From Phytopythium helicoides (taxonomy: Eukaryota; Oomycota; Peronosporomycetes; Pythiales; Pythiaceae): a stretch of DNA of 64,000 nt. This document shows, in pieces, positions 39,992-58,804 of this stretch (position 1 is its first letter; every line of letters starts with the position of its first letter). Position numbers and translations under genes: made by a program. The stretch is from positions 1,488,001-1,552,000 of the forward strand of contig JANFNE010000005.1 of NCBI GenBank assembly GCA_024867545.1, read 5' to 3'. The notes under the pieces are model-generated. The model was not told the origin of the DNA and did not search any database. It saw only the letters and a program-made list of their open reading frames with translations.

Positions 39992-40471
39992 ATGAAGTCC
40001 GTCTCGATCTATGCGCTCGCTGTGGCCGCTGCCTGCTCGGTGGCTGCCGGAGTTCATGTCGCCGATCCGGTGCTGAGCGTCAACGTCGGCACGCAGCCAC
40101 AACTCAACGATTTCGCCGGGCTTGTCAACAAGAACACTGTCTTGAAGAACAACAACGTTGCGATCGCTTCGAGCAGCGTCGCAGCGGTCCAGGACGACAC
40201 GCTCTCGGTCCAGGAGGCTGACGGCGATCTCCCGATTGGAGTATGGCTGACGGGCCAGCAAGAGCCGATCACTGAGGCCCACGAGACGGAAGATGGCGAT
40301 CTTGAGTTCTTCCGCCGTGGCTTCCGCCGTCAGGCATTCTGCTACCGTCGTGGGTTCTCGACGATCTGCGGCTGGCGCTACCCGTCCGACTTTTGGTTCC
40401 GTCGTGGCCGCTTCATCTACGGAGGATCTTGCGGCTTTGATCGATCGTTCGGCAGCTACTACTACTGCTAA
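39992..40471 (+). CDS. Small secreted cysteine-containing protein
   Basis: A single exon of 159 residues. A clear signal peptide (MKSVSIYALAVAAACSVAAG) has a likely cut after VAAG or GVHA. The middle is Val/Asn/Asp-rich. The last 55 residues are Arg/Phe/Tyr/Gly-rich with four cysteines (AFCYRRGFSTICGW, GGSCGFD, terminal YYYC), enough for two disulphides. No RxLR, LxLFLAK or elicitin pattern is present. In oomycetes, genes of this type encode wall or apoplastic proteins, including candidate effectors. That role is inference from size and secretion only. Confidence 0.75.
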   Translation: MKSVSIYALAVAAACSVAAGVHVADPVLSVNVGTQPQLNDFAGLVNKNTVLKNNNVAIASSSVAAVQDDTLSVQEADGDLPIGVWLTGQQEPITEAHETEDGDLEFFRRGFRRQAFCYRRGFSTICGWRYPSDFWFRRGRFIYGGSCGFDRSFGSYYYC

Positions 40472-40767: not shown

Positions 40768-42997
40768 ATGAGCGAGTTGCAGCTGATCGTCGAACAGCTC
40801 AATAAGGAGCCGTTCCGGCTGGGCCTTACGCTCGTGGCCTTCGATGAGAAGAGCAATTTTGAGCTTCTGCAGGTGCTCAACGATGTCTTTGCCGAAATGG
40901 ACTCGACGAAGCATTCAGTGGATTTACGTCGAGAAGCGGACGAGGCGCGAGCCATGAGGTACCTCGAGTTCCTTCAGCTGCTCAAGTTTCCCCTCCCGAG
41001 AGACATTGAAGGATTTCGAGATGCCTTGATGCTTGGCGACCGCCAGGTGATCTATGCAGTCCTACACTGGGCACTTAAGAGCTTGCCAACTCACAAGAAA
41101 CGCGCATATCTTGGACGCTTCTTAGCGCCAGTGAACGTCCCACAAGAGTACTTTGGAAACGAAAGTGCGTGCTAGCTGCTGTGTTTGTCATGAATGTCGG
41201 TGACTGCATCTAACAGTATTATAAGCAGGTCTGCTGGCGATGTTTGAGCATCACAAGCAGCTTCAGGAGCAGTTCAAGGTAATTCACAAAGAGGTGGATG
41301 CACTACGGTCAACAAAGTCGCGCCCCGGCGAGCTTCGCAAGGAGATCACTCAAATGGAAGAAGAAGCCGCTCAGCTGGTGGAGAAGATTGCAGCGCTGAA
41401 AAAGAAAACCGCCGGCGAGAGTGGATTCAAAGACGTCCTTGAGGCTACTAGCGCATTGCGAAAAGAGCAAGAAGAGCAAGCTAAGCTGGCCGAGCGTAAG
41501 CGGGACCAAATGTTGGCACTTTCGCTGGTAGAAAAGCGTGCACGCGAGAGTGAGGCAAGGCTGATGGAGTTACGAGGCGCACTTCGGTCAGACACGTCTC
41601 CTGATCAACTATTCGATCACCTCCAGACCCAGGTGAGTCGCAATCAAGATCTGTTGATTCATAAATTCCCCCAGGAATTTCGTACACAGCAAGAGAACCT
41701 ACAGCGAGTCGAAAAAGCACTCGCCGAGCCACCAAAGACGGAACACGACATCGCTGACATGGAAGATGAAATCGCGCAATTACGCTCAATGATACAGCAG
41801 TACCAGGCTCAAGTTGCCGAGGCTCAGCGAGCTAACGGTGCAAACGGAGGTGACGACAAGCTCGCGATATTTCGTCAGCATGCAAGTGTGCAAGCGAAAA
41901 AGCTTGCTGACAAGGAAGAGGAAGCTCAGCGTGCACAACAGGACAAAGCGTCGATAATGAAACAGATCGAAAGTACCGAGGCGAAATTGGCGGAGATCGC
42001 AAGAACGGCAGGGGGCGCGGGGGCCATGACGCGTGAAGAGTTCAAGCAGTATTCCAACATGCTGCGCAACAAGACGGCGCAATACAAGAAAGTTAAGGCC
42101 GAGCTCGCTGAGCTCGCTGCCGAGAGTGTGGTGCTCCATCGCACAGAACAACTTCTCAAGAGCAGAAGCGCAGATCTCGAGGGCTTCTTGAAGGACTTGG
42201 AAGCAAAGAGAGGTGTGGCAGGGTTCCTCGAGACACACGAGAAATTGGATGCAGTGTCTGCAATGAATGCGCAAATCAACCAGCTAAAGGGAGAAACACT
42301 GGAAGAGATTTCTCGCATTGTCACGGATCTGAACCAAACTCTCAAGGAGCGCAAAAACCAGCTTGCACCTCAAATCAAGGAGCTACGTGCAGTACGCCAA
42401 AAGTACCAAGAGACAGAGCAGGTATACCTCGACAAGAAGGCGCAGTACGATGCCACTGCAGTTGGTCTCGAGGCAGAGCGCTTAAAACTTGAACAGGAGT
42501 GTTCAGCCTTCCAAGACGACTGTCTGCGTGAGGAGTCTCAATTTCATCTACTGCACTGCCAGCTAGAGATTGAACGTGCACGTGCTGATAAGGTGGCACA
42601 GGAGGTTGAGTTTGAGAGCGGGGCTGGAGGAAAAAGGCTTCTTCGGGACATTCGCTCATTTCAGGAGCTTTACAAGCATAAGGTTGCTCAGCAGGAGTCC
42701 CTCACAAAGGAACTGCGCAAGCAACAAAAAACCCTGAAAACGAGTGCCGGTGATCGCGCCAAACAGAAAGAGATGTTTGAGCATCTAGCAAAGCTGTTAA
42801 GCTGCAAGGTGCGGCTTGCGAGTGGTGCAAGCGGTGGGAGTGGAGGCAGTAGTGGAATTGGAATTGGCGGTATGGGTGGCGGTGCGATGGGAGTCGGTGG
42901 TATGGGCGGCGGGATGGGCCGTGATATCTTTGACGGCCACGCGGACATTGCCCACTTTGATGTTGGTGGGGCCAATGTCATGACCCTCGACGGATAA
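40768..42997 (+). CDS. IFT81: Intraflagellar transport protein 81
   Basis: Two exons, 40768-41164 and 41229-42997 (intron of 64 bases), give 721 residues. IFT81 is a core IFT-B subunit that, with IFT74, carries tubulin into the growing flagellum. The N-terminal ~125 residues match the IFT81 calponin-homology head: LNKEPFRLGLTLVAFDEKSNFELLQVLNDVFAEMD..., VIYAVLHWALKSLPTHKKRAYLGRFL. The rest is coiled coil (FEHHKQLQEQFKVIHKEVDALRS, then EMEEE-like heptads). The C-terminus has a Gly/Met-rich tail (GGSGGSSGIGIGGMGGG) that I do not recall from other IFT81 proteins. The ATG at 40768 aligns with the usual N-terminus MSxxxxxxxxLNKEPF. Confidence 0.95.
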
Positions 42998-43574
42998 ACA
43001 TTTGGGCCATGTGCGCGCCATCTCACTTACATGCATTGCTTTCTTCCGCATTGAAAATCAAATGTTTCCAACGATAAACACGTTCTCATGACGAGCGGCG
43101 TGCCCACCATCTAGATTTCTATGAGTGCTCAACCATGACTCATGTGCTAGCAGCGCCTGTCGTATTCCCAACTCATGGCGTGCATTGTGTGTCACTGCGC
43201 CAATTACTTTTTAGCATCATGTCGCTGTAGACCCCTCCGGTCGACGGCGTAACAAGTACGCATGCTCGCACGCTCGCCCACTCACTCAACTGAGGACGTC
43301 GAAACCCAAAGAGATAGATGTCTATGAAAGGTGCATGCGTGTTTGTTACTTGATTCATGTACTTGACGTGTTCTTACGCTACTACGCGAGTATGAACATG
43401 AACATACGGAGAGGTCCACATGCAGTAAGGTGCGCATGATGCGACTCACATGCACACAACAACAACATACAACAACATACACTACGGTCGAGCTGACTGA
43501 CTTGGTAGGCGGGTCGTTGACAACGAGGCTCGAGTCACTCGATCTCGATCAGCTCGCTCGACCAGATCGGCTAT
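42998..43574. other. Intergenic DNA and degenerate left edge of the array
   Basis: No gene was recognised between IFT81 and the first array gene. From about 43230 the sequence becomes similar to the spacer of the tandem units (for example AAAGAGAT..TATGAAAGG and GCATGCGTGTTTGTTACTTGA) but with many differences. The left boundary of the array is therefore near 43230. Confidence 0.6.
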
Positions 43575-43615
43575 ATCAGCTCGATCAGCTCGATCAGCTC
43601 GATCAGCTCGATCAG
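43575..43615. repeat. 9-bp minisatellite, array unit 1
   Basis: ATCAGCTCG repeated four and a half times, overlapping the stop codon of the unit 1 gene. Read on the gene strand, each repeat brings another in-frame TGA. Confidence 0.9.
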
Positions 43616-44586
43616 CGCCAGCGAGGGCGAACAGCGGACGTCGTCGTGGCGACTTTGGATGCGCACTTGGTGGGGGCGGAGGTAGCTGTGGTGGTCGCTT
43701 TAGCAGCAGCAGCAAGAGCACCCTTGGAGGCTAGGTCCTCACGCCTGCGGCCGAGCGAAACAAATCGCATATCACGTGTGTAGGTGACTGTTGTAGCAGC
43801 CTTCGAGGCTTGGTCCTCACGCCGGCGACCGAGCGAAACAAATCGCATATCACGTCGCTGGGACGTAACAGCAGGGACGACCGCAATAGCATCAGCGGCT
43901 GGCGTGACCGGCAGCAGCTGCTCGGATCGCCGGCGGCCTTGTGACACAAAGTGGCGGAGTTGAAACTCACGCTTCAGGATTCGCTCTTGCTCGGCGGAGG
44001 CTGTGCGGAAACTGGTGGAGAGCTCCGTGTTGATGGCGAGGACTTCGCTCTCGCTTTCGCCCTCACTCTCGCAGCCGTTCTCGCACTTGCAGTCGCAGCC
44101 ATTCTCGCTGTCGAAGTCATTGTCGTTGTCGCTTACGCGCTCCGAGACGATGTTGCTCTCGTTGTCGCAGTCGCGGTCGCTGTCGTCCTCGTCCGTGGTC
44201 GAGTCGGCTTCCGTGCTGTCTTCAGCGTCGACTAGGTCCTTGGCTTCACTTTGGGCGTGGACCGAAGTGGTTGGTTGCTTCTCCACATCCTTCGAGGCGT
44301 TCACGCTAGTGCGCGCGTCGGCAGCGAGGCTCTCGACCTCCGTGTCGTCGTGCGAGGCCGTCAAGGCCGTCGAGGAGGGAGTTGTCGCGATGGGAGCCGC
44401 GTGGGAGGCCGCCGAGAGCAGCAACGACGCCGCGAAGACCACAGAGACGACGACGGAGGCGACGGAGACGACGGAGACGGTGACGGCGCGGAACAGCGGC
44501 GAGCAGGCGGCGAACGCCAGCAGGGAGGTGAGTGCCAGCAGGGAGGCGACGGCGGTGGCGGTGGCGACGACAGTGGTGGCGCTCAT
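43612..44586 (-). CDS. FVSxGRRR-repeat protein, array unit 1
   Basis: Encodes 324 residues from the ATG at 44586. The frame is open 89 codons further upstream, but MSATTVVATATAVASLLALT begins the hydrophobic part. Residues 9-29 and 33-60 are hydrophobic (signal peptide plus membrane helix, or a hairpin). Residues 75-185 are very acidic with a CDCKCENGC cluster at 164-172. The C-terminal 120 residues are basic and repetitive: HFVSQGRRR at 212-220 and RFVSLGRRR at 248-256 and 274-282, each followed by an acidic SE or ED. KR or RR precedes the first two. No family was recognised. This copy is the most diverged of the six in its flank. Confidence 0.72.
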   Translation of the reverse strand: MSATTVVATATAVASLLALTSLLAFAACSPLFRAVTVSVVSVASVVVSVVFAASLLLSAASHAAPIATTPSSTALTASHDDTEVESLAADARTSVNASKDVEKQPTTSVHAQSEAKDLVDAEDSTEADSTTDEDDSDRDCDNESNIVSERVSDNDNDFDSENGCDCKCENGCESEGESESEVLAINTELSTSFRTASAEQERILKREFQLRHFVSQGRRRSEQLLPVTPAADAIAVVPAVTSQRRDMRFVSLGRRREDQASKAATTVTYTRDMRFVSLGRRREDLASKGALAAAAKATTTATSAPTKCASKVATTTSAVRPRWR

Positions 44587-45710
44587 GACGTCTGGAGGCT
44601 GGTGGCCGTGGGAGAGCGCGGGAGCTTCGCTTGGCTTGGCTTGTTCTCTTGGCGGCGAGAAGGAAAGTGAGGGCTCGGCCGGAAAAGGCAACCCGAGTTG
44701 ACTTGGTGTTTGTATGTGTGGATTTTCGGAGAAAACCCTCGGAAAGGCTCGTGGTGGCCTGGGAGTCACGATCCTGAGGCACCAGCCAGCGCCTCTGGAG
44801 ATCGCTGTGTGCGTCTGTGAGACTCGTGTGCTGCCTGCCGCGTTGCCGCGCATGCGTCATGAGCTGCTCCGTGCTCCGATCCGATGGACCCTCCGTGGTT
44901 GAAGTGGATCTGTACCCATTTCCGCCGGACCAGCCGGAACCGTCACATGGCTACGTGACGCGACATCACAGCCACGTCACATGCGTGCACGAGGTAGATC
45001 CGAGCAGCTTCCAGTCGATGAGCACGTAGGTTGGGTATGAGTGGGAGTTGGAGTTGGAGGGAGGCTGTCGTCGCGGACTGATTGGTTCGTCTTGGGACCG
45101 CGAGAGCTGCGCTCATGACGAGTTACTGGATGTTTGTGGAGAGTGGAGATTCGAGTGAACTTCGAGTCACTTCCTCGAGTGGCGTGCTCTGGACGTGGAT
45201 GTGGATGCTGATTGTGTAAGAGCTCGTGATGGTATTCGTGCTTGTCGAGGTGATCCTTTCCCGGCGATCTATTTGCCTCCATGCCTACCCGCAGGCTTCT
45301 CGGTGACACTGTGAGCCAGCATCAACCATGAAAACGGCTGGCATCTCCATGAGCCTTCTTTTCGAGCTTGACGCGTCACAGTAGGCTGCCACACGGAGGC
45401 CAAACGAGTCGTTCGAGAGTGATAAGCGAATGGGAAGAATGAAAGGACAAGGCGCAACCAACGAGTCATGACCAACAAACCGCAAACGCATCCGATCGAC
45501 AGCGTAACATGCACGCACGCTCGCTCGACTGGGGACGTCGAAACTCAAAGAGATGTTTATGAAAGGCGCATGCGTGTTTGTTACTTGAGGTCATCTCACG
45601 CTATGCACATGCACACTACAACAACAAAATAAATTACGGTCGAGCCGACTGACTCACTGGCAGGCCGTTGAGCAAGAGGCTGGAGCAGCTAGCTCGATTG
45701 AATCGGTTCG
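44587..45710. other. Array spacer (repeated in all units)
   Basis: About 1.1 kb between consecutive array genes. It must hold the promoter of the unit 1 gene at its left end and the 3' part of the next unit at its right end. Small open frames of 62-110 residues recur in every unit but have no similarity or codon pattern of real genes, and the 110-residue one is His/Pro/Thr-rich. Equivalent spacers lie at 46732-47867, 48979-50114, 51226-52361, 53473-54608 and, truncated, 55720-56115. Confidence 0.6.
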
Positions 45711-45760
45711 ATCAGCTCGATCAGCTCGATCAGCTCGATCAGCTCGATCAGCTCGATCAG
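45711..45760. repeat. 9-bp minisatellite, array unit 2
   Basis: ATCAGCTCG repeated five and a half times across the stop codon of the unit 2 gene, one repeat longer than in unit 1. Confidence 0.9.
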
Positions 45761-46731
45761 CGCCAGCGAGGGCGAACAGCGGACGTCGTCGTGGCGACTT
45801 TGGATGCGCACTTGGTGGGGGCGGAGGTAGCTGTGGTGGTCGCTTCAGCAGCAGCAGCAAGAGCACCCTTGGAGGCTTGGTCCTCACGCCGGCGACCGAG
45901 CGAAACAAATCGCGTATCACGTGTGGGGGTGACTGTTGTAGCAACCTTGGCTGCTTGGTCCTCGCGCCGTCGACCGAGAGAAACAAATCGCATATCACGT
46001 CGCTGGGACGTAACAGCAGGGACGACCGCAATAGCATCAGCGGCTGGCGTGACCGGCAGCAGCTGCTCGGATCGCCGGCGGCCTTGTGACACAAAGTGGC
46101 GGAGTTGAAACTCACGCTTCAGGATTCGCTCTTGCTCGGCGGAGGCTGTGCGGAAACTGGTGGAGAGCTCCGTGTTGATGGCGAGGACTTCGCTCTCGCT
46201 TTCGCCCTCACTCTCGCAGCCGTTCTCGCACTTGCAGTCGCAGCCATTCTCGCTGTCGAAGTCATTGTCGTTGTCGCTTACGCGCTCCGAGACGATGTTG
46301 CTCTCGTTGTCGCAGTCGCGGTCGCTGTCGTCCTCGTCCGTGGTCGAGTCGGCTTCCGTGCTGTCTTCAGCGTCGACCAGGTCCTTGGCTTCACTTTGGG
46401 CGTGGACCGAAGTGGTTGGTTGCTTCTCCACATCCTTCGAGGCGTTCACGCTAGTGCGCGCGTCGGCAGCGAGGCTCTCGACCTCCGTGTCGTCGTGCGA
46501 GGCCGTCAAGGCCGTCGAGGAGGCAGTTGTCGCGATGGGAGCCGCGAGGGAGGCCGACGAGAGCAGCAGCGGCGCCGCGAAGACGACAGAGACGACGACG
46601 GAGGCGACGGAGACGACGGAGACGGTGACGGCGCGGAACAGCGGCGAGCAGGCGGCGAACGCCAGCAGGGAGGTGAGTGCCAGCAGGGAGGCGACGGCGG
46701 TGGCGGTGGCGACGACAGTGGTGGCGCTCAT
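45757..46731 (-). CDS. FVSxGRRR-repeat protein, array unit 2
   Basis: Encodes 324 residues from the ATG at 46731, the same layout as unit 1, with two RFVSLGRRR and one HFVSQGRRR motif. It differs from all other copies around residues 52-72 (AAPLLLSSASLAAPIATTAS) and in the linker between the repeats (AAKVATTVTPTRDTRFVSLG). Cysteine cluster and acidic block are unchanged, so the variable positions lie in the hydrophobic segment and the repeats. Confidence 0.72.
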   Translation of the reverse strand: MSATTVVATATAVASLLALTSLLAFAACSPLFRAVTVSVVSVASVVVSVVFAAPLLLSSASLAAPIATTASSTALTASHDDTEVESLAADARTSVNASKDVEKQPTTSVHAQSEAKDLVDAEDSTEADSTTDEDDSDRDCDNESNIVSERVSDNDNDFDSENGCDCKCENGCESEGESESEVLAINTELSTSFRTASAEQERILKREFQLRHFVSQGRRRSEQLLPVTPAADAIAVVPAVTSQRRDMRFVSLGRRREDQAAKVATTVTPTRDTRFVSLGRRREDQASKGALAAAAEATTTATSAPTKCASKVATTTSAVRPRWR

Positions 46732-47867
46732 GACGTCTGGAGGCTGGTGGCCGTGGGAGAGCGCGGGAGCTTCGCTTGGCTTGGCTTGTTCTCTTGGCGG
46801 CGAGAAGGAAAGTGAGGGCTCGGCCGGAAAAGGCAACCCGAGTTGACTTGGTGTTTGTATGTGTGGATTTTCGGAGAAAACCCTCGGAAAGGCTCGTGGC
46901 GGCCTGGGAGTCACGATCCTGAGGCACCAGCCAGCGCCTCTGGAGATCGCTGTGTGCGTCTGTGAGACTCGTGTGCTGCCTGCCGCGTTGCCGCGCATGC
47001 GTCATGAGCTGCTCCGTGCTCCGATCCGATGGACCCTCCGTGGTTGAAGTGGATCTGTACCCATTTCCGCCGGACCAGCCGGAACCGTCACATGGCTACG
47101 TGACGCGACATCACAGCCACGTCACATGCGTGCACGAGGTAGATCCGAGCAGCTTCCAGTCGATGAGCACGTAGGTTGGGTATGAGTGGGAGTTGGAGTT
47201 GGAGGGAGGCTGTCGTCGCGGACTGATTGGTTCGTCTTGGGACCGCGAGAGCTGCGCTCATGACGAGTTACTGGATGTTTGTGGAGAGTGGAGATTCGAG
47301 TGAACTTCGAGTCACTTCCTCGAGTGGCGTGCTCTGGACGTGGATGTGGATGCTGATTGTGTAAGAGCTCGTGATGGTATTCGTGCTTGTCGAGGTGATC
47401 CTTTCCCGGCGATCTATTTGCCTCCATGCCTACCCGCAGGCTTCTCGGTGACACTGTGAGCCAGCATCAACCATGAAAACGGCTGGCATCTCCATGAGCC
47501 TTCTTTTCGAGCTTGACGCGTCACAGTAGGCTGCCACACGGAGGCCAAACGAGTCGTTCGAGAGTGATAAGCGAATGGGAAGAATGAAAGGACAAGGCGC
47601 AACCAACGAGTCATGACCAACAAACCGCAAACGCATCCGATCGACAGCGTAACATGCACGCACGCTCGCTCGACTGGGGACGTCGAAACTCAAAGAGATG
47701 TTTATGAAAGGCACATGCGTGTTTGTTACTTGAGGTCATCTCACGCTATGCACATGCACGCACACTACAACAACAAAATAAATAGATAACGCTCGCTCGA
47801 GCCGACTGACTCACTCACAGGATGTTGAGGAAGAGGCTTGAGCAGCTAGCTCGATTGAATCGGTTCG

Positions 47868-47917
47868 ATCAGCTCGATCAGCTCGATCAGCTCGATCAGC
47901 TCGATCAGCTCGATCAG
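47868..47917. repeat. 9-bp minisatellite, array unit 3
   Basis: ATCAGCTCG, five and a half copies, overlapping the stop codon of the unit 3 gene. Confidence 0.9.
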
Positions 47918-48978
47918 CGCCAGCGAGGGCGAACAGCGGACGTCGTCGTGGCGACTTTGGATGCGCACTTGGTGGGGGCGGAGGTAGCTGTGGTGGTCGC
48001 TTCAGCAGCAGCAGCAAGAGCACCCTTGGAGGCTAGGTCCTCACGCCTGCGGCCGAGCGAAACAAATCGCGCATCACGTGTGCAGGTGACTGTTGTAGCA
48101 ACCTTGGCCGCTTGGTCCTCACGTCGGCGACCGAGGGAAACAAAGCGCGTATCACGTCGCTGTGAAAGGATGGCAGTAGTGAGTGCGGCATCCTTCGAGG
48201 CTTGGTCCTCGCGCCGGCGACCGAGCGAAACAAATCGCATATCACGTCGCTGGGACGTAACAGCAGGGACGACCGCAATAGCATCAGCGGCTGGCGTGAC
48301 CGGCAGCAGCTGCTCGGATCGCCGGCGGCCTTGTGACACAAAGTGGCGGAGTTGAAACTCACGCTTCAGGATTCGCTCTTGCTCGGCGGAGGCTGTGCGG
48401 AAACTGGTGGAGAGCTCCGTGTTGATGGCGAGGACTTCGCTCTCGCTTTCGCCCTCACTCTCGCAGCCGTTCTCGCACTTGCAGTCGCAGCCATTCTCGC
48501 TGTCGAAGTCATTGTCGTTGTCGCTTACGCGCTCCGAGACGATGTTGCTCTCGTTGTCGCAGTCGCGGTCGCTGTCGTCCTCGTCCGTGGTCGAGTCGGC
48601 TTCCGTGCTGTCTTCAGCGTCGACTAGGTCCTTGGCTTCACTTTGGGCGTGGACCGAAGTGGTTGGTTGCTTCTCCACATCCTTCGAGGCGTTCACGCTA
48701 GTGCGCGCGTCGGCAGCGAGGCTCTCGACCTCCGTGTCGTCGTGCGAGGCCGTCAAGGCCGTCGAGGAGGGAGTTGTCGCGATGGGAGCCGCGTGGGAGG
48801 CCGCCGAGAGCAGCAGCGACGCCGCGAAGACCACAGAGACGACGACGGAGGCGACGGAGACGACGGAGACGGTGACGGCGCGGAACAGCGGCGAGCAGGC
48901 GGCGAACGCCAGCAGGGAGGTGAGTGCCAGCAGGGAGGCGACGGCGGTGGCGGTGGCGACGACAGTGGTGGCGCTCAT
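47914..48978 (-). CDS. FVSxGRRR-repeat protein, array unit 3
   Basis: Encodes 354 residues from the ATG at 48978. It equals unit 1 in the N-terminal 260 residues but has one additional 30-residue repeat at the C-terminus, giving three RFVSLGRRRED motifs after the HFVSQGRRR motif. Linkers between motifs are Ala/Thr-rich (ASKDAALTTAILSQRRD, AAKVATTVTCTRD). The preceding residues D, M/T/A and R vary while F-V-S-L-G-R-R-R-E-D is fixed. Confidence 0.72.
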   Translation of the reverse strand: MSATTVVATATAVASLLALTSLLAFAACSPLFRAVTVSVVSVASVVVSVVFAASLLLSAASHAAPIATTPSSTALTASHDDTEVESLAADARTSVNASKDVEKQPTTSVHAQSEAKDLVDAEDSTEADSTTDEDDSDRDCDNESNIVSERVSDNDNDFDSENGCDCKCENGCESEGESESEVLAINTELSTSFRTASAEQERILKREFQLRHFVSQGRRRSEQLLPVTPAADAIAVVPAVTSQRRDMRFVSLGRRREDQASKDAALTTAILSQRRDTRFVSLGRRREDQAAKVATTVTCTRDARFVSLGRRREDLASKGALAAAAEATTTATSAPTKCASKVATTTSAVRPRWR

Positions 48979-50114
48979 GACGTCTGGAGGCTGGTGGCCG
49001 TGGGAGAGCGCGGGAGCTTCGCTTGGCTTGGCTTGTTCTCTTGGCGGCGAGAAGGAAAGTGAGGGCTCGGCCGGAAAAGGCAACCCGAGTTGACTTGGTG
49101 TTTGTATGTGTGGATTTTCGGAGAAAACCCTCGGAAAGGCTCGTGGCGGCCTGGGAGTCACGATCCTGAGGCACCAGCCAGCGCCTCTGGAGATCGCTGT
49201 GTGCGTCTGTGAGACTCGTGTGCTGCCTGCCGCGTTGCCGCGCATGCGTCATGAGCTGCTCCGTGCTCCGATCCGATGGACCCTCCGTGGTTGAAGTGGA
49301 TCTGTACCCATTTCCGCCGGACCAGCCGGAACCGTCACATGGCTACGTGACGCGACATCACAGCCACGTCACATGCGTGCACGAGGTAGATCCGAGCAGC
49401 TTCCAGTCGATGAGCACGTAGGTTGGGTATGAGTGGGAGTTGGAGTTGGAGGGAGGCTGTCGTCGCGGACTGATTGGTTCGTCTTGGGACCGCGAGAGCT
49501 GCGCTCATGACGAGTTACTGGATGTTTGTGGAGAGTGGAGATTCGAGTGAACTTCGAGTCACTTCCTCGAGTGGCGTGCTCTGGACGTGGATGTGGATGC
49601 TGATTGTGTAAGAGCTCGTGATGGTATTCGTGCTTGTCGAGGTGATCCTTTCCCGGCGATCTATTTGCCTCCATGCCTACCCGCAGGCTTCTCGGTGACA
49701 CTGTGAGCCAGCATCAACCATGAAAACGGCTGGCATCTCCATGAGCCTTCTTTTCGAGCTTGACGCGTCACAGTAGGCTGCCACACGGAGGCCAAACGAG
49801 TCGTTCGAGAGTGATAAGCGAATGGGAAGAATGAAAGGACAAGGCGCAACCAACGAGTCATGACCAACAAACCGCAAACGCATCCGATCGACAGCGTAAC
49901 ATGCACGCACGCTCGCTCGACTGGGGACGTCGAAACTCAAAGAGATGTTTATGAAAGGCACATGCGTGTTTGTTACTTGAGGTCATCTCACGCTATGCAC
50001 ATGCACGCACACTACAACAACAAAATAAATAGATAACGCTCGCTCGAGCCGACTGACTCACTCACAGGATGTTGAGGAAGAGGCTTGAGCAGCTAGCTCG
50101 ATTGAATCGGTTCG

Positions 50115-50164
50115 ATCAGCTCGATCAGCTCGATCAGCTCGATCAGCTCGATCAGCTCGATCAG
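50115..50164. repeat. 9-bp minisatellite, array unit 4
   Basis: ATCAGCTCG, five and a half copies, identical in position and length to that in unit 3. Confidence 0.9.
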
Positions 50165-51225
50165 CGCCAGCGAGGGCGAACAGCGGACGTCGTCGTGGCG
50201 ACTTTGGATGCGCACTTGGTGGGGGCGGAGGTAGCTGTGGTGGTCGCTTCAGCAGCAGCAGCAAGAGCACCCTTGGAGGCTAGGTCCTCACGCCTGCGGC
50301 CGAGCGAAACAAATCGCGCATCACGTGTGCAGGTGACTGTTGTAGCAACCTTGGCCGCTTGGTCCTCACGTCGGCGACCGAGGGAAACAAAGCGCGTATC
50401 ACGTCGCTGTGAAAGGATGGCAGTAGTGAGTGCGGCATCCTTCGAGGCTTGGTCCTCGCGCCGGCGACCGAGCGAAACAAATCGCATATCACGTCGCTGG
50501 GACGTAACAGCAGGGACGACCGCAATAGCATCAGCGGCTGGCGTGACCGGCAGCAGCTGCTCGGATCGCCGGCGGCCTTGTGACACAAAGTGGCGGAGTT
50601 GAAACTCACGCTTCAGGATTCGCTCTTGCTCGGCGGAGGCTGTGCGGAAACTGGTGGAGAGCTCCGTGTTGATGGCGAGGACTTCGCTCTCGCTTTCGCC
50701 CTCACTCTCGCAGCCGTTCTCGCACTTGCAGTCGCAGCCATTCTCGCTGTCGAAGTCATTGTCGTTGTCGCTTACGCGCTCCGAGACGATGTTGCTCTCG
50801 TTGTCGCAGTCGCGGTCGCTGTCGTCCTCGTCCGTGGTCGAGTCGGCTTCCGTGCTGTCTTCAGCGTCGACTAGGTCCTTGGCTTCACTTTGGGCGTGGA
50901 CCGAAGTGGTTGGTTGCTTCTCCACATCCTTCGAGGCGTTCACGCTAGTGCGCGCGTCGGCAGCGAGGCTCTCGACCTCCGTGTCGTCGTGCGAGGCCGT
51001 CAAGGCCGTCGAGGAGGGAGTTGTCGCGATGGGAGCCGCGTGGGAGGCCGCCGAGAGCAGCAGCGACGCCGCGAAGACCACAGAGACGACGACGGAGGCG
51101 ACGGAGACGACGGAGACGGTGACGGCGCGGAACAGCGGCGAGCAGGCGGCGAACGCCAGCAGGGAGGTGAGTGCCAGCAGGGAGGCGACGGCGGTGGCGG
51201 TGGCGACGACAGTGGTGGCGCTCAT
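50161..51225 (-). CDS. FVSxGRRR-repeat protein, array unit 4
   Basis: 354 residues; the protein from the ATG at 51225 is identical to that of unit 3 as read. One difference, P to L, lies in the open frame upstream of that ATG (RAFLRVF instead of RAFPRVF). This fits the upstream stretch being untranslated. Confidence 0.72.
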   Translation of the reverse strand: MSATTVVATATAVASLLALTSLLAFAACSPLFRAVTVSVVSVASVVVSVVFAASLLLSAASHAAPIATTPSSTALTASHDDTEVESLAADARTSVNASKDVEKQPTTSVHAQSEAKDLVDAEDSTEADSTTDEDDSDRDCDNESNIVSERVSDNDNDFDSENGCDCKCENGCESEGESESEVLAINTELSTSFRTASAEQERILKREFQLRHFVSQGRRRSEQLLPVTPAADAIAVVPAVTSQRRDMRFVSLGRRREDQASKDAALTTAILSQRRDTRFVSLGRRREDQAAKVATTVTCTRDARFVSLGRRREDLASKGALAAAAEATTTATSAPTKCASKVATTTSAVRPRWR

Positions 51226-52361
51226 GACGTCTGGAGGCTGGTGGCCGTGGGAGAGCGCGGGAGCTTCGCTTGGCTTGGCTTGTTCTCTTGGCGGCGAGAA
51301 GGAAAGTGAGGGCTCGGCCGGAAAAGGCAACCCGAGTTGACTTGGTGTTTGTATGTGTGGATTTTCGGAGAAAACCCTCAGAAAGGCTCGTGGTGGCCTG
51401 GGAGTCACGATCCTGAGGCACCAGCCAGCGCCTCTGGAGATCGCTGTGTGCGTCTGTGAGACTCGTGTGCTGCCTGCCGCGTTGCCGCGCATGCGTCATG
51501 AGCTGCTCCGTGCTCCGATCCGATGGACCCTCCGTGGTTGAAGTGGATCTGTACCCATTTCCGCCGGACCAGCCGGAACCGTCACATGGCTACGTGACGC
51601 GACATCACAGCCACGTCACATGCGTGCACGAGGTAGATCCGAGCAGCTTCCAGTCGATGAGCACGTAGGTTGGGTATGAGTGGGAGTTGGAGTTGGAGGG
51701 AGGCTGTCGTCGCGGACTGATTGGTTCGTCTTGGGACCGCGAGAGCTGCGCTCATGACGAGTTACTGGATGTTTGTGGAGAGTGGAGATTCGAGTGAACT
51801 TCGAGTCACTTCCTCGAGTGGCGTGCTCTGGACGTGGATGTGGATGCTGATTGTGTAAGAGCTCGTGATGGTATTCGTGCTTGTCGAGGTGATCCTTTCC
51901 CGGCGATCTATTTGCCTCCATGCCTACCCGCAGGCTTCTCGGTGACACTGTGAGCCAGCATCAACCATGAAAACGGCTGGCATCTCCATGAGCCTTCTTT
52001 TCGAGCTTGACGCGTCACAGTAGGCTGCCACACGGAGGCCAAACGAGTCGTTCGAGAGTGATAAGCGAATGGGAAGAATGAAAGGACAAGGCGCAACCAA
52101 CGAGTCATGACCAACAAACCGCAAACGCATCCGATCGACAGCGTAACATGCACGCACGCTCGCTCGACTGGGGACGTCGAAACTCAAAGAGATGTTTATG
52201 AAAGGCACATGCGTGTTTGTTACTTGAGGTCATCTCACGCTATGCACATGCACGCACACTACAACAACAAAATAAATAGATAACGCTCGCTCGAGCCGAC
52301 TGACTCACTCACAGGATGTTGAGGAAGAGGCTTGAGCAGCTAGCTCGATTGAATCGGTTCG

Positions 52362-52411
52362 ATCAGCTCGATCAGCTCGATCAGCTCGATCAGCTCGATC
52401 AGCTCGATCAG
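52362..52411. repeat. 9-bp minisatellite, array unit 5
   Basis: ATCAGCTCG, five and a half copies, as in units 3 and 4. Confidence 0.9.
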
Positions 52412-53472
52412 CGCCAGCGAGGGCGAACAGCGGACGTCGTCGTGGCGACTTTGGATGCGCACTTGGTGGGGGCGGAGGTAGCTGTGGTGGTCGCTTCAGC
52501 AGCAGCAGCAAGAGCACCCTTGGAGGCTAGGTCCTCACGCCTGCGGCCGAGCGAAACAAATCGCGCATCACGTGTGCAGGTGACTGTTGTAGCAACCTTG
52601 GCCGCTTGGTCCTCACGTCGGCGACCGAGGGAAACAAAGCGCGTATCACGTCGCTGTGAAAGGATGGCAGTAGTGAGTGCGGCATCCTTCGAGGCTTGGT
52701 CCTCGCGCCGGCGACCGAGCGAAACAAATCGCATATCACGTCGCTGGGACGTAACAGCAGGGACGACCGCAATAGCATCAGCGGCTGGCGTGACCGGCAG
52801 CAGCTGCTCGGATCGCCGGCGGCCTTGTGACACAAAGTGGCGGAGTTGAAACTCACGCTTCAGGATTCGCTCTTGCTCGGCGGAGGCTGTGCGGAAACTG
52901 GTGGAGAGCTCCGTGTTGATGGCGAGGACTTCGCTCTCGCTTTCGCCCTCACTCTCGCAGCCGTTCTCGCACTTGCAGTCGCAGCCATTCTCGCTGTCGA
53001 AGTCATTGTCGTTGTCGCTTACGCGCTCCGAGACGATGTTGCTCTCGTTGTCGCAGTCGCGGTCGCTGTCGTCCTCGTCCGTGGTCGAGTCGGCTTCCGT
53101 GCTGTCTTCAGCGTCGACTAGGTCCTTGGCTTCACTTTGGGCGTGGACCGAAGTGGTTGGTTGCTTCTCCACATCCTTCGAGGCGTTCACGCTAGTGCGC
53201 GCGTCGGCAGCGAGGCTCTCGACCTCCGTGTCGTCGTGCGAGGCCGTCAAGGCCGTCGAGGAGGGAGTTGTCGCGATGGGAGCCGCGTGGGAGGCCGCCG
53301 AGAGCAGCAGCGACGCCGCGAAGACCACAGAGACGACGACGGAGGCGACGGAGACGACGGAGACGGTGACGGCGCGGAACAGCGGCGAGCAGGCGGCGAA
53401 CGCCAGCAGGGAGGTGAGTGCCAGCAGGGAGGCGACGGCGGTGGCGGTGGCGACGACAGTGGTGGCGCTCAT
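52408..53472 (-). CDS. FVSxGRRR-repeat protein, array unit 5
   Basis: 354 residues, identical from the ATG at 53472 to units 3, 4 and 6 as read. Same three RFVSLGRRRED repeats and the HFVSQGRRR motif. Confidence 0.72.
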   Translation of the reverse strand: MSATTVVATATAVASLLALTSLLAFAACSPLFRAVTVSVVSVASVVVSVVFAASLLLSAASHAAPIATTPSSTALTASHDDTEVESLAADARTSVNASKDVEKQPTTSVHAQSEAKDLVDAEDSTEADSTTDEDDSDRDCDNESNIVSERVSDNDNDFDSENGCDCKCENGCESEGESESEVLAINTELSTSFRTASAEQERILKREFQLRHFVSQGRRRSEQLLPVTPAADAIAVVPAVTSQRRDMRFVSLGRRREDQASKDAALTTAILSQRRDTRFVSLGRRREDQAAKVATTVTCTRDARFVSLGRRREDLASKGALAAAAEATTTATSAPTKCASKVATTTSAVRPRWR

Positions 53473-54608
53473 GACGTCTGGAGGCTGGTGGCCGTGGGAG
53501 AGCGCGGGAGCTTCGCTTGGCTTGGCTTGTTCTCTTGGCGGCGAGAAGGAAAGTGAGGGCTCGGCCGGAAAAGGCAACCCGAGTTGACTTGGTGTTTGTA
53601 TGTGTGGATTTTCGGAGAAAACCCTCGGAAAGGCTCGTGGTGGCCTGGGAGTCACGATCCTGAGGCACCAGCCAGCGCCTCTGGAGATCGCTGTGTGCGT
53701 CTGTGAGACTCGTGTGCTGCCTGCCGCGTTGCCGCGCATGCGTCATGAGCTGCTCCGTGCTCCGATCCGATGGACCCTCCGTGGTTGAAGTGGATCTGTA
53801 CCCATTTCCGCCGGACCAGCCGGAACCGTCACATGGCTACGTGACGCGACATCACAGCCACGTCACATGCGTGCACGAGGTAGATCCGAGCAGCTTCCAG
53901 TCGATGAGCACGTAGGTTGGGTATGAGTGGGAGTTGGAGTTGGAGGGAGGCTGTCGTCGCGGACTGATTGGTTCGTCTTGGGACCGCGAGAGCTGCGCTC
54001 ATGACGAGTTACTGGATGTTTGTGGAGAGTGGAGATTCGAGTGAACTTCGAGTCACTTCCTCGAGTGGCGTGCTCTGGACGTGGATGTGGATGCTGATTG
54101 TGTAAGAGCTCGTGATGGTATTCGTGCTTGTCGAGGTGATCCTTTCCCGGCGATCTATTTGCCTCCATGCCTACCCGCAGGCTTCTCGGTGACACTGTGA
54201 GCCAGCATCAACCATGAAAACGGCTGGCATCTCCATGAGCCTTCTTTTCGAGCTTGACGCGTCACAGTAGGCTGCCACACGGAGGCCAAACGAGTCGTTC
54301 GAGAGTGATAAGCGAATGGGAAGAATGAAAGGACAAGGCGCAACCAACGAGTCATGACCAACAAACCGCAAACGCATCCGATCGACAGCGTAACATGCAC
54401 GCACGCTCGCTCGACTGGGGACGTCGAAACTCAAAGAGATGTTTATGAAAGGCACATGCGTGTTTGTTACTTGAGGTCATCTCACGCTATGCACATGCAC
54501 GCACACTACAACAACAAAATAAATAGATAACGCTCGCTCGAGCCGACTGACTCACTCACAGGATGTTGAGGAAGAGGCTTGAGCAGCTAGCTCGATTGAA
54601 TCGGTTCG

Positions 54609-54658
54609 ATCAGCTCGATCAGCTCGATCAGCTCGATCAGCTCGATCAGCTCGATCAG
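54609..54658. repeat. 9-bp minisatellite, array unit 6
   Basis: ATCAGCTCG, five and a half copies, as in units 3-5. Confidence 0.9.
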
Positions 54659-55719
54659 CGCCAGCGAGGGCGAACAGCGGACGTCGTCGTGGCGACTTTG
54701 GATGCGCACTTGGTGGGGGCGGAGGTAGCTGTGGTGGTCGCTTCAGCAGCAGCAGCAAGAGCACCCTTGGAGGCTAGGTCCTCACGCCTGCGGCCGAGCG
54801 AAACAAATCGCGCATCACGTGTGCAGGTGACTGTTGTAGCAACCTTGGCCGCTTGGTCCTCACGTCGGCGACCGAGGGAAACAAAGCGCGTATCACGTCG
54901 CTGTGAAAGGATGGCAGTAGTGAGTGCGGCATCCTTCGAGGCTTGGTCCTCGCGCCGGCGACCGAGCGAAACAAATCGCATATCACGTCGCTGGGACGTA
55001 ACAGCAGGGACGACCGCAATAGCATCAGCGGCTGGCGTGACCGGCAGCAGCTGCTCGGATCGCCGGCGGCCTTGTGACACAAAGTGGCGGAGTTGAAACT
55101 CACGCTTCAGGATTCGCTCTTGCTCGGCGGAGGCTGTGCGGAAACTGGTGGAGAGCTCCGTGTTGATGGCGAGGACTTCGCTCTCGCTTTCGCCCTCACT
55201 CTCGCAGCCGTTCTCGCACTTGCAGTCGCAGCCATTCTCGCTGTCGAAGTCATTGTCGTTGTCGCTTACGCGCTCCGAGACGATGTTGCTCTCGTTGTCG
55301 CAGTCGCGGTCGCTGTCGTCCTCGTCCGTGGTCGAGTCGGCTTCCGTGCTGTCTTCAGCGTCGACTAGGTCCTTGGCTTCACTTTGGGCGTGGACCGAAG
55401 TGGTTGGTTGCTTCTCCACATCCTTCGAGGCGTTCACGCTAGTGCGCGCGTCGGCAGCGAGGCTCTCGACCTCCGTGTCGTCGTGCGAGGCCGTCAAGGC
55501 CGTCGAGGAGGGAGTTGTCGCGATGGGAGCCGCGTGGGAGGCCGCCGAGAGCAGCAGCGACGCCGCGAAGACCACAGAGACGACGACGGAGGCGACGGAG
55601 ACGACGGAGACGGTGACGGCGCGGAACAGCGGCGAGCAGGCGGCGAACGCCAGCAGGGAGGTGAGTGCCAGCAGGGAGGCGACGGCGGTGGCGGTGGCGA
55701 CGACAGTGGTGGCGCTCAT
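54655..55719 (-). CDS. FVSxGRRR-repeat protein, array unit 6
   Basis: 354 residues, identical to units 3-5. This is the last copy. Its upstream region matches the other units for only about 390 bases before the array ends at ~56115, so its promoter may be shorter or different from those of the other copies. Confidence 0.72.
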   Translation of the reverse strand: MSATTVVATATAVASLLALTSLLAFAACSPLFRAVTVSVVSVASVVVSVVFAASLLLSAASHAAPIATTPSSTALTASHDDTEVESLAADARTSVNASKDVEKQPTTSVHAQSEAKDLVDAEDSTEADSTTDEDDSDRDCDNESNIVSERVSDNDNDFDSENGCDCKCENGCESEGESESEVLAINTELSTSFRTASAEQERILKREFQLRHFVSQGRRRSEQLLPVTPAADAIAVVPAVTSQRRDMRFVSLGRRREDQASKDAALTTAILSQRRDTRFVSLGRRREDQAAKVATTVTCTRDARFVSLGRRREDLASKGALAAAAEATTTATSAPTKCASKVATTTSAVRPRWR

Positions 55720-56195
55720 GACGTCTGGAGGCTGGTGGCCGTGGGAGAGCGCGGGAGCTTCGCTTGGCTTGGCTTGTTCTCTTGGCGGCGAGAAGGAAAG
55801 TGAGGGCTCGGCCGGAAAAGGCAACCCGAGTTGACTTGGTGTTTGTATGTGTGGATTTTCGGAGAAAACCCTCGGAAAGGCTCGTGGCGGCCTGGGAGTC
55901 ACGATCCTGAGGCACCAGCCAGCGCCTCTGGAGATCGCTGTGTGCGTCTGTGAGACTCGTGTGCTGCCTGCCGCGTTGCCGCGCATGCGTCATGAGCTGC
56001 TCCGTGCTCCGATCCGATGGACCCTCCGTGGTTGAAGTGGATCTGTACCCATTTCCGCCGGACCAGCCGGAACCGTCACATGGCTACGTGACGCGACATC
56101 ACAGCCACGTCACATGCATTGGATGTGGCACAACGTTGGCGCATCACTGCTCTCACAAGCAGACTTTACAACAAAAGGGATAACACCGAGTACTA

Positions 56196-58804
56196 TTACG
56201 CATTATTTCTGCTGTTTGCCTCGCCTTCCTCGGCGGAGTTATCAAAACTTTTCACTCCTCGCCTTGCGGCTGCTTCGTCCTCCTCAATAAAACGGACGTC
56301 GAAGCAGTTGCGCTCAGTTGGAACCTTGTACTCGAGTCCAAGCGCGATGAACACATCGACTTCTGACTCGCATACAACGCTCTCACCCTGATCCACCTTC
56401 AGCCCGCCTTTTGTTCTCATGACACGCTTGAGTTCACGATCTGACAGCGTCCAGCCCTTCTTGCGTGCGTACAAACGCATACTTCTATTGAAGTGGTCAC
56501 TTCCAGTGAAGTAGAGCAGCGCGAAGCCAAATTTCCGCCGAGGGTATACCTTAATATCAAGCCGGCGGAAACGATGTGAAGGTGACAGACGGCAAACACC
56601 CATGTAGGTGTCGCAACGACCTTCACCGCGATGCTGTTCGTAATTTTGGGTCAAGTCATCTGCAGTAGAGTAGTATGTCATTCGTTTGTTAGTTCGGGGA
56701 TCATCAGCTCAATCAAGTTTGAATTACAATATGCCTGTCAAAAATCCAGAAGCGTGAAGGCGTTTGAGCAACTCTGTGGATCGGACACGCAGTTAGAATG
56801 CAGCGCTTTCAAGCATGTAGATCCATTCGTACCTGGAAGAATGTAACATTCATCTTCATCAGGATCGGTGATGAGCACATCACAGTCTCCCGACGCTGTT
56901 TTGCCACGACGATACGATCCACAAGCGAGCGCCTTCGCATTCGGGATCATTTTGTGGACCTCGTCGACCACGGTTTTCTCGATCTCTGCTACCTCCGCTC
57001 TGTTGAATGCTCATGTCAGCATTGAAAAAGCAGCTCCCGCATATTTCCATTTGTCGATGTAGTGTACCTGGGGATCTTCGCAAGAAAATCGTCATAGTGC
57101 TTCAGTCCGATCTGCTGTTGAGGTGATAGAACAGCTTCATTATCTCGGCGAAGGTCGTCGAGTGATTTGTAACCCATGCTGCGGGAAACCAACACACTAG
57201 GTCAGACCTTTGAGCTCATGACTTCAACGACAAGATGATAGCGCACTTGTACAGCTTTGCAGCAGTTGCAGGTCCTACTCCCCAGATCCGAGCCAGGTCA
57301 ACCAATGCCTGTAGTCGTGGGTTCTTCTTCTTCGCCTCGAGCTTTTCCAAACGACCAGTTTCAAGCACCTGAACGACTTTGTCACGCAGTCTTCCCTTAG
57401 CCCACTTCATTCCCTTCAAATCGCTCACGCTGCAAACTCTCGTGCGCATTGCCTTGAGGCTAGATATGACTTTCTGCCCATCACAAAGACTACATCAGCA
57501 CAAAGATCCATTTGCCACGAACTCAAAATCAGCGGGTCAAACCTTGTACATGTACTCGCGCCAAATATCCCGCTCGACGTGGAGAAACTCCATTAACTCA
57601 TCAAACGGATCAGTTATATGGGCGTTCAAATTGGCTTGCGTCACTGAGTGAATTCGTTGAAAAGAATGTTAGCATCGTATCTCGGATACATGTCAACGAA
57701 GAAGTACCGCTTACAAGAAGATTGTTGGCACACGAATGCGCCGGGTTGCAGCTGCTTGAGTTTTTGGGTTCCATTGTATCCATCGCGCTCGGACAGCACG
57801 ACAAAGCCTGGGTTGTTTTTGAAAAACGCCGCCGTTCGTTCCGCCACGAGCTTGTCTTTCTCAAGCTGTAGTTTTGTGTTCTCTTCTCGGATCCGCTGGC
57901 TGTCAAAGTGAATAGGTTTGGCACGCTGTATCTCACCTGTTCCTTGATTATGGGGATTGGAGCCGTCGTCATCGCTCTCTGAATCCTCGTGCTGTTTTGC
58001 TGCTGCAGGTTTTTCTTCTTCGATGTCGGCTTCATCGATGACTGTTTTTGGTGGGTCCGGGCTCCAAGCGAGACTCGCATCACTCGGAGGCATTTTTCGC
58101 TCGCGCAGCAAGTAGACGAGCCACTCGTGCGTATACACCTCAACACTCTCTGGCGGAAACCCTTCTCCAAGGTGCTCCTTTGCCTTTTGTATCTCTAGCT
58201 GCGCACTGGCAATCGCAATATGCACGCTGCTCCAGTCGATAGCATTGGCTGCTTGCTGTCTTCCCCTTATTGCCGTGTCGACAACCTCTCCTCCAAGCTT
58301 AACCACCATGTCGCGCCAGATCTCCAGCCGTCTCCGACTCACGTCCGGCCCAACCGGCACCAGTAACACTCGCTTGCCAGCTAGGAGCTGTCCGCCAGGG
58401 TCAGCAGTCGCTGCTTGTTTCCCGCGCTTTAACTTGGCCTTGGCGTCCGCGGCAGCGCTGCTGCTCTTCCGCTTCTTCTTGCCCGCAGCCATCGCGCGCA
58501 CGTTGCTCAAGTCGCGCGCCATTGCAATTGCCCCGCTCGCCCCAAGCTTTTCCTGCTCTGGGTCTTGCTCAGCCGTGTCGGCCTCTTGGTCTACTTTCTC
58601 TGCACTTTCCCCAAGCTCTCGCCTCGCAGTGCCAATGCTCTTCTGCGCTACCGAGTCGTCTGCAATCACCGCCGCGCCGCTTGCTCCGCATCCGCCCAAA
58701 GCGCGAGTGGCGCGCGCCGACTGCGAGCGCGGCGCGGCCAGCAGCGCGTCCAGGCGCCGGAAGAAGCGCCGCTTGTGTCCTGCGCTCAGCAGCTCCATCA
58801 TCAC
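56196..58804 (-). CDS. Family X DNA polymerase with N-terminal BRCT domain
   Basis: A multi-exon gene, related to DNA polymerases lambda, mu and beta that fill short gaps in base-excision and end-joining repair. Exon 1 starts at one of three consecutive ATGs (58804, 58801, 58798). It encodes a basic KKKRKSS nuclear-signal-like patch and a BRCT-like domain (LLAGKRVLLVPVGPDVSRRRLEIWRDMVVKLGGEVVD ... VEVYTHEWLVYLLRERK). The helix-hairpin-helix is LARIWGVGPATAAKLY (near 57270). The palm has GSYRRGK..GDCDVLITDPD with two metal-binding Asp (near 56880-56920) and RRLDIKVYPR with the third (near 56560), then YFTGSDHFNRSMRLYA. The end has the family's LGLEYKVPTERN motif followed by an extra acidic tail. 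Between BRCT and polymerase core is a charged linker with a CQQSSCKRYFFVD segment not known to me from lambda. Confidence 0.88.

Follow-up and report, generated by a model that had tools for sequence, protein, structure and literature searches.

A six-copy tandem array in Phytopythium helicoides is one locus of a large protein-coding gene family with conserved FVSxGRRR motifs

We analyzed a 64,000-nucleotide stretch of Phytopythium helicoides contig JANFNE010000005.1 (positions 1,488,001 to 1,552,000, forward strand; hereafter the window), in which an earlier reading of the letters alone (the original prediction) had described a six-copy tandem array of an unrecognised gene family with FVSxGRRR repeats. 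We show that this array is a single locus of a large, protein-coding oomycete family. The family has spread through duplication, both in tandem and as palindromes, of whole units that each comprise promoter, single-frame gene and 3' end. We further show that the motif R-[EQ]-F-Q-x-x-H-[FY]-V-S-x-G-R-R-R (motif 1), the repeat R-D-x-R-F-V-S-[LM]-G-R-R-R-E-[ED] (motif 2) and the terminal VRPRWR are under purifying selection.

The six units of the array lie in register, head-to-tail on the minus strand, with a unit-to-unit spacing of 2145 and then four times 2247 bp, and each contains an intact open frame on that strand. The array is where it had been placed (43230..56115), except that repeat identity starts slightly inside this range, at ~43574; the bounds of 43574 and 56117, taken from a comparison of the window with itself at the unit offsets, are approximate. 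The four long units are 99.9–100% identical to one another over 2117 bp. The two shorter units match the long ones at 97–98% over 1280 bp and at 86–96% in the other pieces, where the alignment must step over a missing repeat. The lowest-coordinate copy is without ~0.8 kb 3' of its gene. From a shared MSATT start, four copies encode identical proteins of 354 residues (100% over 1–354), and two encode proteins of 324 residues with one repeat fewer. The longest open frames of the units (413–443 residues) begin upstream of this likely start; since an initiator (INR) sits 84 nt upstream of the MSATT ATG, the extra N-terminal part of the 413/443-residue frames is most likely 5' leader. Antisense frames of 177–239 residues also occur in the units (window 44003–55834, plus strand), probably as a by-product of GC-rich codon use.

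A search of the organism's own assembly (49.06 Mb, 100 contigs) returned 80 matching stretches, with some genes accounting for two each. A pattern for VRPRWR followed by a stop codon hit 82 genomic sites, against 0 for the reversed control. Two of these were, in our reading, probable non-members and were dropped: a site on C81 that ends in TGG, and C16:666117, where no open frame of at least 80 residues holds the C-terminus. Five more parsed genes end in a variant of VRPRWR, and the family size is about 80 VRPRWR-stop C-termini plus these five. The genes are on eight contigs, and a ninth contig holds a decayed copy. The FVSxGRRR motif itself is real: its DNA pattern, which misses copies with AGT or AGG codons, hit 158 genomic sites versus 1 for the reversed pattern, far above chance, and among the matches listed all sites fall in family clusters. 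Parsing of 40 fetched regions and the window gave 68 frames with a recognised start, encoding 55 distinct proteins; left out of all counts were frames cut by the ends of fetched stretches and five frames with no recognised start. Two of these five belong to L044, run open over 401 and 395 residues and end in VRPRWR. The family C-terminus ends 66 of the 68 parsed frames, the other two being truncated, so within this genome the family does not consist of stop-riddled copies only. In the C41 arrays (L024, L027) we noted copies next to intact ones whose frames are truncated and have lost the VRPRWR end, and a lone decayed copy at ~740.1–740.7 kb of C10 (L018/L046) with an internal TGA and the diverged motif HFVTQGRRR.

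When the 55 distinct proteins were aligned, motif 1 had R, [EQ], F and Q in all rows, followed by two variable places and H (again 55), then F in 53 rows and Y in 2, V in 54, S in 53, a variable place, G in 54 and RRR in 55. VRPRWR is kept in 51–54 rows at each position, an acidic S-T-x-D is present in every protein, and twelve divergent members have 27 invariant positions in common. On a loose score, motif 2 occurs zero times in 19 proteins, once in 20, twice in 5 and three times in 11; its 8 distinct 14-mers all read [RQ]-D-x-R-[FL]-V-S-[LM]-G-R-R-R-E-[ED]. In the same alignment, the nonsynonymous (pN) and synonymous (pS) differences were 0.118 and 0.598 over the 15 motif-1 columns, and 0.032 and 0.513 over the last six columns. 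At motif level this test demanded no particular residues, on genes that were themselves gathered by motif or by C-terminus pattern. A core picked by pattern gave a pN of 0.088 and a pS of 0.687 (40 DNA forms), with its invariance partly built in: a match to the pattern required V, then S or P, G or D, and RRR, and the pattern was also used for the motif-2 context tallies given below (n = 27). In the test on the alignment the constraint was somewhat weaker, still clear, and variants with I for V and A for S came to light (one each). Selection on the motif is strong at paralogue distances at which synonymous sites are near saturation. Moreover, 31 of 35 coding gaps in seven pairs of intact paralogues were multiples of three, versus 13 of 48 gaps in upstream DNA; the other four coding gaps are two in-frame gaps that were split by the aligner (8+214 and 5+241).

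In a tree of the 68 coding sequences, 12 of 17 local clusters were monophyletic, hence arrays grow or are homogenised locally. Head-to-head palindromic gene pairs were found on C23, C41, C46 (1.656 Mb) and C68, with arms of up to 2.9 kb that are 94.7–99.3% identical and spacers of ~0.27–0.39 kb; some arms end with the fetched stretch. In the five pairs listed in the table, the arms measure ~1.5–2.9 kb at 96–99% identity. The family therefore offers a clean case of growth as tandem arrays and as head-to-head palindromes alike. Amplification of a whole unit with its promoter, as originally proposed, is borne out by the unit identity across the array and by the promoter shared among loci. The accompanying proposal of selection for dosage or diversity fared less well: the near-identical copies and the local monophyly point to local duplication and homogenisation rather than diversification, and the near-identity of recent copies suggests dosage and homogenisation more than diversity.

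The promoter is nearly private to the family and common to the sampled loci of all subfamilies. All 18 representatives carry an INR (YCAYTYY, as defined in the accessible part of PMC3599244) between –55 and –89, and CATAC, CAAGTC and the initiator CACTTTCC were found upstream of the ATG in eight representatives from eight contigs. Across the genome, CAAGTC...CCACTTTCC had 42 sites, 37 of them at family loci (reversed control: 0), and CAAGTC...CTCACTTTCC had 28, 26 of them at family loci (reversed control: 1). Together this makes 63 of 70, including one site (C41:93391) that is beside a family gene and whose own gene is unconfirmed. By our own reading, the seven bases two positions past the INR fit the FPR element MWTTTNC exactly in the C68 subfamily and partially in the window copies. 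In P. infestans, joined INR and FPR elements go with higher mRNA levels, developmental regulation and infection functions, according to the accessible part of the same report (PMC3599244). We infer that the family genes are probably expressed.

Paralogues share one plan. An N-terminus that is hydrophobic and free of early charges is followed by an acidic DSTTDED stretch and by REFQxxHFVSxGRRR; then come RDxRFVSLGRRREE repeats, zero to three in number, and VRPRWR closes the protein. The N-terminal hydrophobic stretch is long in 10 of 10 representatives, and their first charged residue (K, R, D or E) falls at position 29–65 and is always K or R; the middle is acidic and the C-terminal part cationic. 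A single-sequence AlphaFold2 model has helices at residues 3–26 and 30–62, plus a helix over motif 1. The CDCKCENGC cluster, which had been described as part of the protein's acidic middle, is present in the window's subfamily and is a local oddity, no family feature, being missing in the 10 of 12 aligned rows that lie outside that subfamily; a metal site there was rejected on the same grounds. Long members (L015, L016, L017, L023 and L028) have an extra block, L[SP]VQRKLNFDDI.LD, ahead of an acidic run; we take this block to resemble an RxL-type cyclin-docking motif.

We tentatively favor, at somewhat less than an even chance, a disordered membrane-anchored protein with a cytosolic tail that carries repeated basic docking motifs, amplified for dosage. 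The N-terminus would be the membrane anchor, probably a two-helix hairpin or a reverse signal-anchor. By the positive-inside rule, a basic flank stays on the cytosolic side; as the first charge is always basic, the long disordered tail, first acidic and then basic, would be left in the cytosol. There, each protein could use its one to four [RH]FVSxGRRR elements as linear docking sites for one partner, which may be a protein or, as with the MARCKS effector domain, an acidic lipid. Phosphorylation of the conserved serine might act as a switch for docking. A second recognition element would be the conserved C-terminus, and copy number would raise the dose of a protein that is produced in large amounts at one stage. 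The VRPR of the C-terminus fits the hydrophobic-R-x-R pattern of arginine-based endoplasmic reticulum retrieval signals, on what we assume to be a cytosolic tail; such signals need not sit at the very end, where VRPRWR does. As a likeness in working only, MARCKS, GAP-43 and BASP1 are generally described as having N-terminal membrane attachment, an acidic low-complexity body and a short basic motif that includes serine and aromatic residues, and no globular domain. Unlike these proteins, the family has a hydrophobic anchor in place of myristate, several motif copies per protein, a conserved C-terminus and a large number of genes. We know of no sequence relation between them.

Several observations weigh against this picture. 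Outside the motifs, the 224 columns that are occupied in 40 or more rows are hardly constrained (pN 0.401, pS 0.433); taken with the low pN of the motifs, this means that the protein body is almost free to evolve, unlike the motifs. Ka/Ks was 0.38–0.69 in 12 pairs with Ks < 0.35, and about 0.5–1.1 in deeper, partly saturated pairs. When the window unit is compared with another copy from its contig, the coding sequence is no more conserved than its flanks (differing sites: 50/1051 in the coding sequence, 13/398 upstream and 30/773 downstream). The residue three places before the motif-1 serine is H, not R, in all 55 proteins, which means that the motifs do not uniformly offer a basophilic-kinase site. 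The mean predicted local distance difference test score of the AlphaFold2 model is 54, with mostly low confidence outside the helices, and a cleavable signal peptide is a possible reading of the N-terminus in the window subfamily. More doubtful is the wider proposal of a previously undescribed system, in which ~80 co-regulated genes with a near-private promoter would encode tethered disordered proteins presenting FVSxGRRR docking elements and a VRPRWR tail; the one to four elements per protein may be directed at a partner, and the dose may be set by arrays and palindromes. If the genes are expressed, the invariant motif would provide a short bait for finding a partner (peptide form RDTRFVSLGRRREE), and the shared promoter a handle on the family's regulator.

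That the family was unrecognised agrees with our protein, profile, Pfam and PDB searches, which gave no relative, shared domain or solved structure. Among ~5.8 billion proteins, neither sequence nor profile searches found a relative, with only ~7,990 candidates, those sharing most words, scored in these searches; this absence should be taken as provisional, because choosing candidates by shared words favors low-complexity proteins and may crowd out true relatives. In the same database, an IFT81 control found Phytophthora, Pythium, Aphanomyces, Saprolegnia, Achlya and Albugo, so the database does hold oomycetes. Matches in viral contigs (54 stretches) and prokaryote genomes (17 stretches) yielded 0 confirmed relatives. 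The first member had no Pfam or NCBIfam match, and no Pfam family matched more than two of 12 members. The scattered matches in one or two of the 12 (best Pfam E 0.0034; best NCBIfam AuxB, 1.2e-6, two members) are probably, in our reading, hydrophobic or low-complexity matches. In the literature, the strings FVSLGRR/RFVSLG, VRPRWR and REFQLRHF were not found, and the accessible parts of work on oomycete tandem or disordered multigene families contain nothing describing the FVSxGRRR family; RPRWR does occur, partly, as far as the accessible text goes, in work on antimicrobial peptides.

It is unlikely that the genes encode secreted pre-pro-proteins, in which a signal peptide and an acidic pro-region would precede repeated basic peptides (e.g. 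DxRFVSLG) that are cut after basic residues and serve as signals or cationic antimicrobials. Such a precursor would explain a conserved peptide repeated in a variable spacer, the acidic middle and cationic C-terminal part, the R before D in 26 of 27 distinct motif-2 contexts and the RRR after the peptide in 8 of 8 loosely scored 14-mers. However, a second basic residue (R) stands ahead of that first R in only 14 of 27 contexts, so that dibasic sites do not bound each peptide on both sides, and E followed by D or E is kept after RRR in 8 of 8, so that the conserved block extends past the right-hand cleavage site. The N-terminus is without positive charge and its hydrophobic stretch is very long. 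The kexin P-domain (PF01483) had no match in six frames, a search in which this domain family matched in 1 of 14 control genomes and in which introns can hide a short domain. Cleavage by kexin is lowered because the N-side residues vary and no P-domain was detected. The related S8 domain (PF00082) had 22 matches in the genome; eight subtilase (S8) matches within ~21 kb (G000 C35:1421637–1442705) apparently form a separate tandem cluster. Amidation asks for glycine followed by basic residues, and these are present (G in 54 and RRR in 55 of 55 proteins for motif 1, GRRR in 8 of 8 for motif 2). Nevertheless, the amidated version is unlikely, because PAM domains (PF01082, PF03712) had no match in six frames, a weak negative since the control genomes gave none either, and because oomycetes completely lack PAM according to the accessible part of PMC6529398. 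Precursors such as yeast alpha-factor and the amidated neuropeptides of metazoans are known for similar arginine-bounded short peptide repeats in a variable, partly acidic spacer; the family differs in its inconsistent N-side dibasic sites, in the C-flank kept beyond the site and in that neither PAM nor a kexin P-domain was detected.

In oomycetes, stage-specific and host-related functions reside in large amplified families. The best known are secreted effectors, according to the accessible part of PMC2926784, and the present family is comparably large. An effector family directed at the host, or a surface family, expanded to interact with host or prey, would suit the large copy number, the lack of detected relatives and the INR, partly with adjoining FPR, a combination tied to infection functions in P. 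infestans (PMC3599244, accessible part). We regard it as less probable still. The family matches no effector class tested. By eye, the 12 aligned rows lack an RXLR close to the N-terminus, a YxSL[RK] between residues 61 and 80, and LFLAK, leaving the LFLAK/LYLAR signature of CRN proteins without a match. An RXLR should lie ~30–150 residues from the signal peptide and be followed by dEER (PMC2926784, accessible part); an RXLR effector was rejected by position and motif, and a YxSL[RK] effector likewise, the nearest strings being FVSQGR and FVSLGR at residues 213–312 of the window protein. The family resembles RXLR-dEER and YxSL[RK] proteins in being a multigene oomycete family whose variable proteins carry a short motif containing arginine (PMC2926784, accessible part). 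It differs from them in that its motif lies in the C-terminal half and is often repeated, not near residues 61–80 or after a signal peptide, and in its uncharged N-terminus and conserved C-terminus. The strongest constraint also lies in the C-terminal half, unlike the N-terminal delivery regions of RXLR, CRN and YxSL[RK] proteins (PMC2926784, accessible part), and the window copies are homogenised, not diversified. The original comparison with effector, surface-protein or mating-peptide families found no direct support.

That the family is selfish or drive-like, maintained through duplication and gene conversion rather than through benefit to the host genome, is very improbable. High copy number, the 12 of 17 monophyletic local clusters and the palindromic pairs would fit it. 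By eye, no other frame of the window unit suggests a transposition gene, and duplication and homogenisation of this kind are usual for ordinary dosage families. Finally, that the array is a repeat devoid of protein function, either a satellite or duplicated DNA in whose GC-rich sequence long frames arose by chance on the two strands, is scarcely credible: the antisense frames, the similar coding and flanking divergence among recent copies and a few broken copies speak for it, and it is strongly contradicted by the in-frame indels, by a pN far below pS in the motifs and not in other columns, by the shared promoter and by the absence of any Rfam match. The features are compiled in the table.

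Table. Positions of the array, its copies, the elements of copy 6, the flanking domains and the palindromic pairs (window positions unless a locus is named)
Feature	Position	Strand	Remark
Whole tandem array, six units	43574..56117	-	Spacing analysis and window self-comparison at those offsets
Copy 1	43612..44586	-	324-residue protein, three GRRR motifs
Copy 2	45757..46731	-	324-residue protein, three GRRR motifs
Copy 3	47914..48978	-	354-residue protein, four GRRR motifs
Copy 4	50161..51225	-	354-residue protein
Copy 5	52408..53472	-	354-residue protein
Copy 6	54655..55719	-	354-residue protein
Copy 6 promoter block	55795..55838	-	CAAGTC ... CTCACTTTCC, common to the family; INR YCAYTYY at 55797-55803
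Copy 6 hydrophobic N-terminus	55534..55719	-	Residues 1-62; helices 3-26 and 30-62 predicted; only charge R33
Copy 6 acidic DSTTDEDD	55315..55338	-	Residues 128-135
Copy 6 CDCKCENGC	55204..55230	-	Subfamily-specific
Copy 6 motif 1	55060..55104	-	Residues 206-220, REFQLRHFVSQGRRR
Copy 6 motif 2 core A	54952..54975	-	FVSLGRRR, residues 249-256
Copy 6 motif 2 core B	54862..54885	-	FVSLGRRR, residues 279-286
Copy 6 motif 2 core C	54784..54807	-	FVSLGRRR, residues 305-312
Copy 6 C-terminal VRPRWR	54658..54675	-	Residues 349-354
IFT81_CH domain	40768-41172		Domain match; IFT81 gene flanking the array
DNA polymerase beta thumb	56199-56681		Domain match; gene flanking the array
Palindromic pair	L029 763-6821		
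Palindromic pair	L031 4824-9839		
Palindromic pair	L033 6609-9883		
Palindromic pair	L036 507-5557		
Palindromic pair	L043 1202-5721		

A structural RNA or tRNA in the unit was rejected: the tRNA search found none in the window, and no Rfam family matched at positions 40–60 kb of the window, which gives no sign of a known non-coding satellite. Elsewhere in the window, a 159-residue frame (39992–40468, plus strand) has a signal-peptide-like N-terminus and a C-terminus rich in arginine, phenylalanine, glycine and tyrosine (FRRGFRR...), with no Pfam match at E 0.01. The array is flanked by IFT81 on one side and by a gene with a DNA polymerase beta thumb on the other. The IFT81 frame next to the IFT81_CH domain is 94% identical to one unnamed protein and 66–69% identical to named Phytophthora and Pythium proteins (rows read, coverage 68–100%), with one downy mildew row at 64%, in keeping with the oomycete origin that had been proposed. 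Judged by IFT81, the oomycete is about equally distant from Phytophthora and Pythium.

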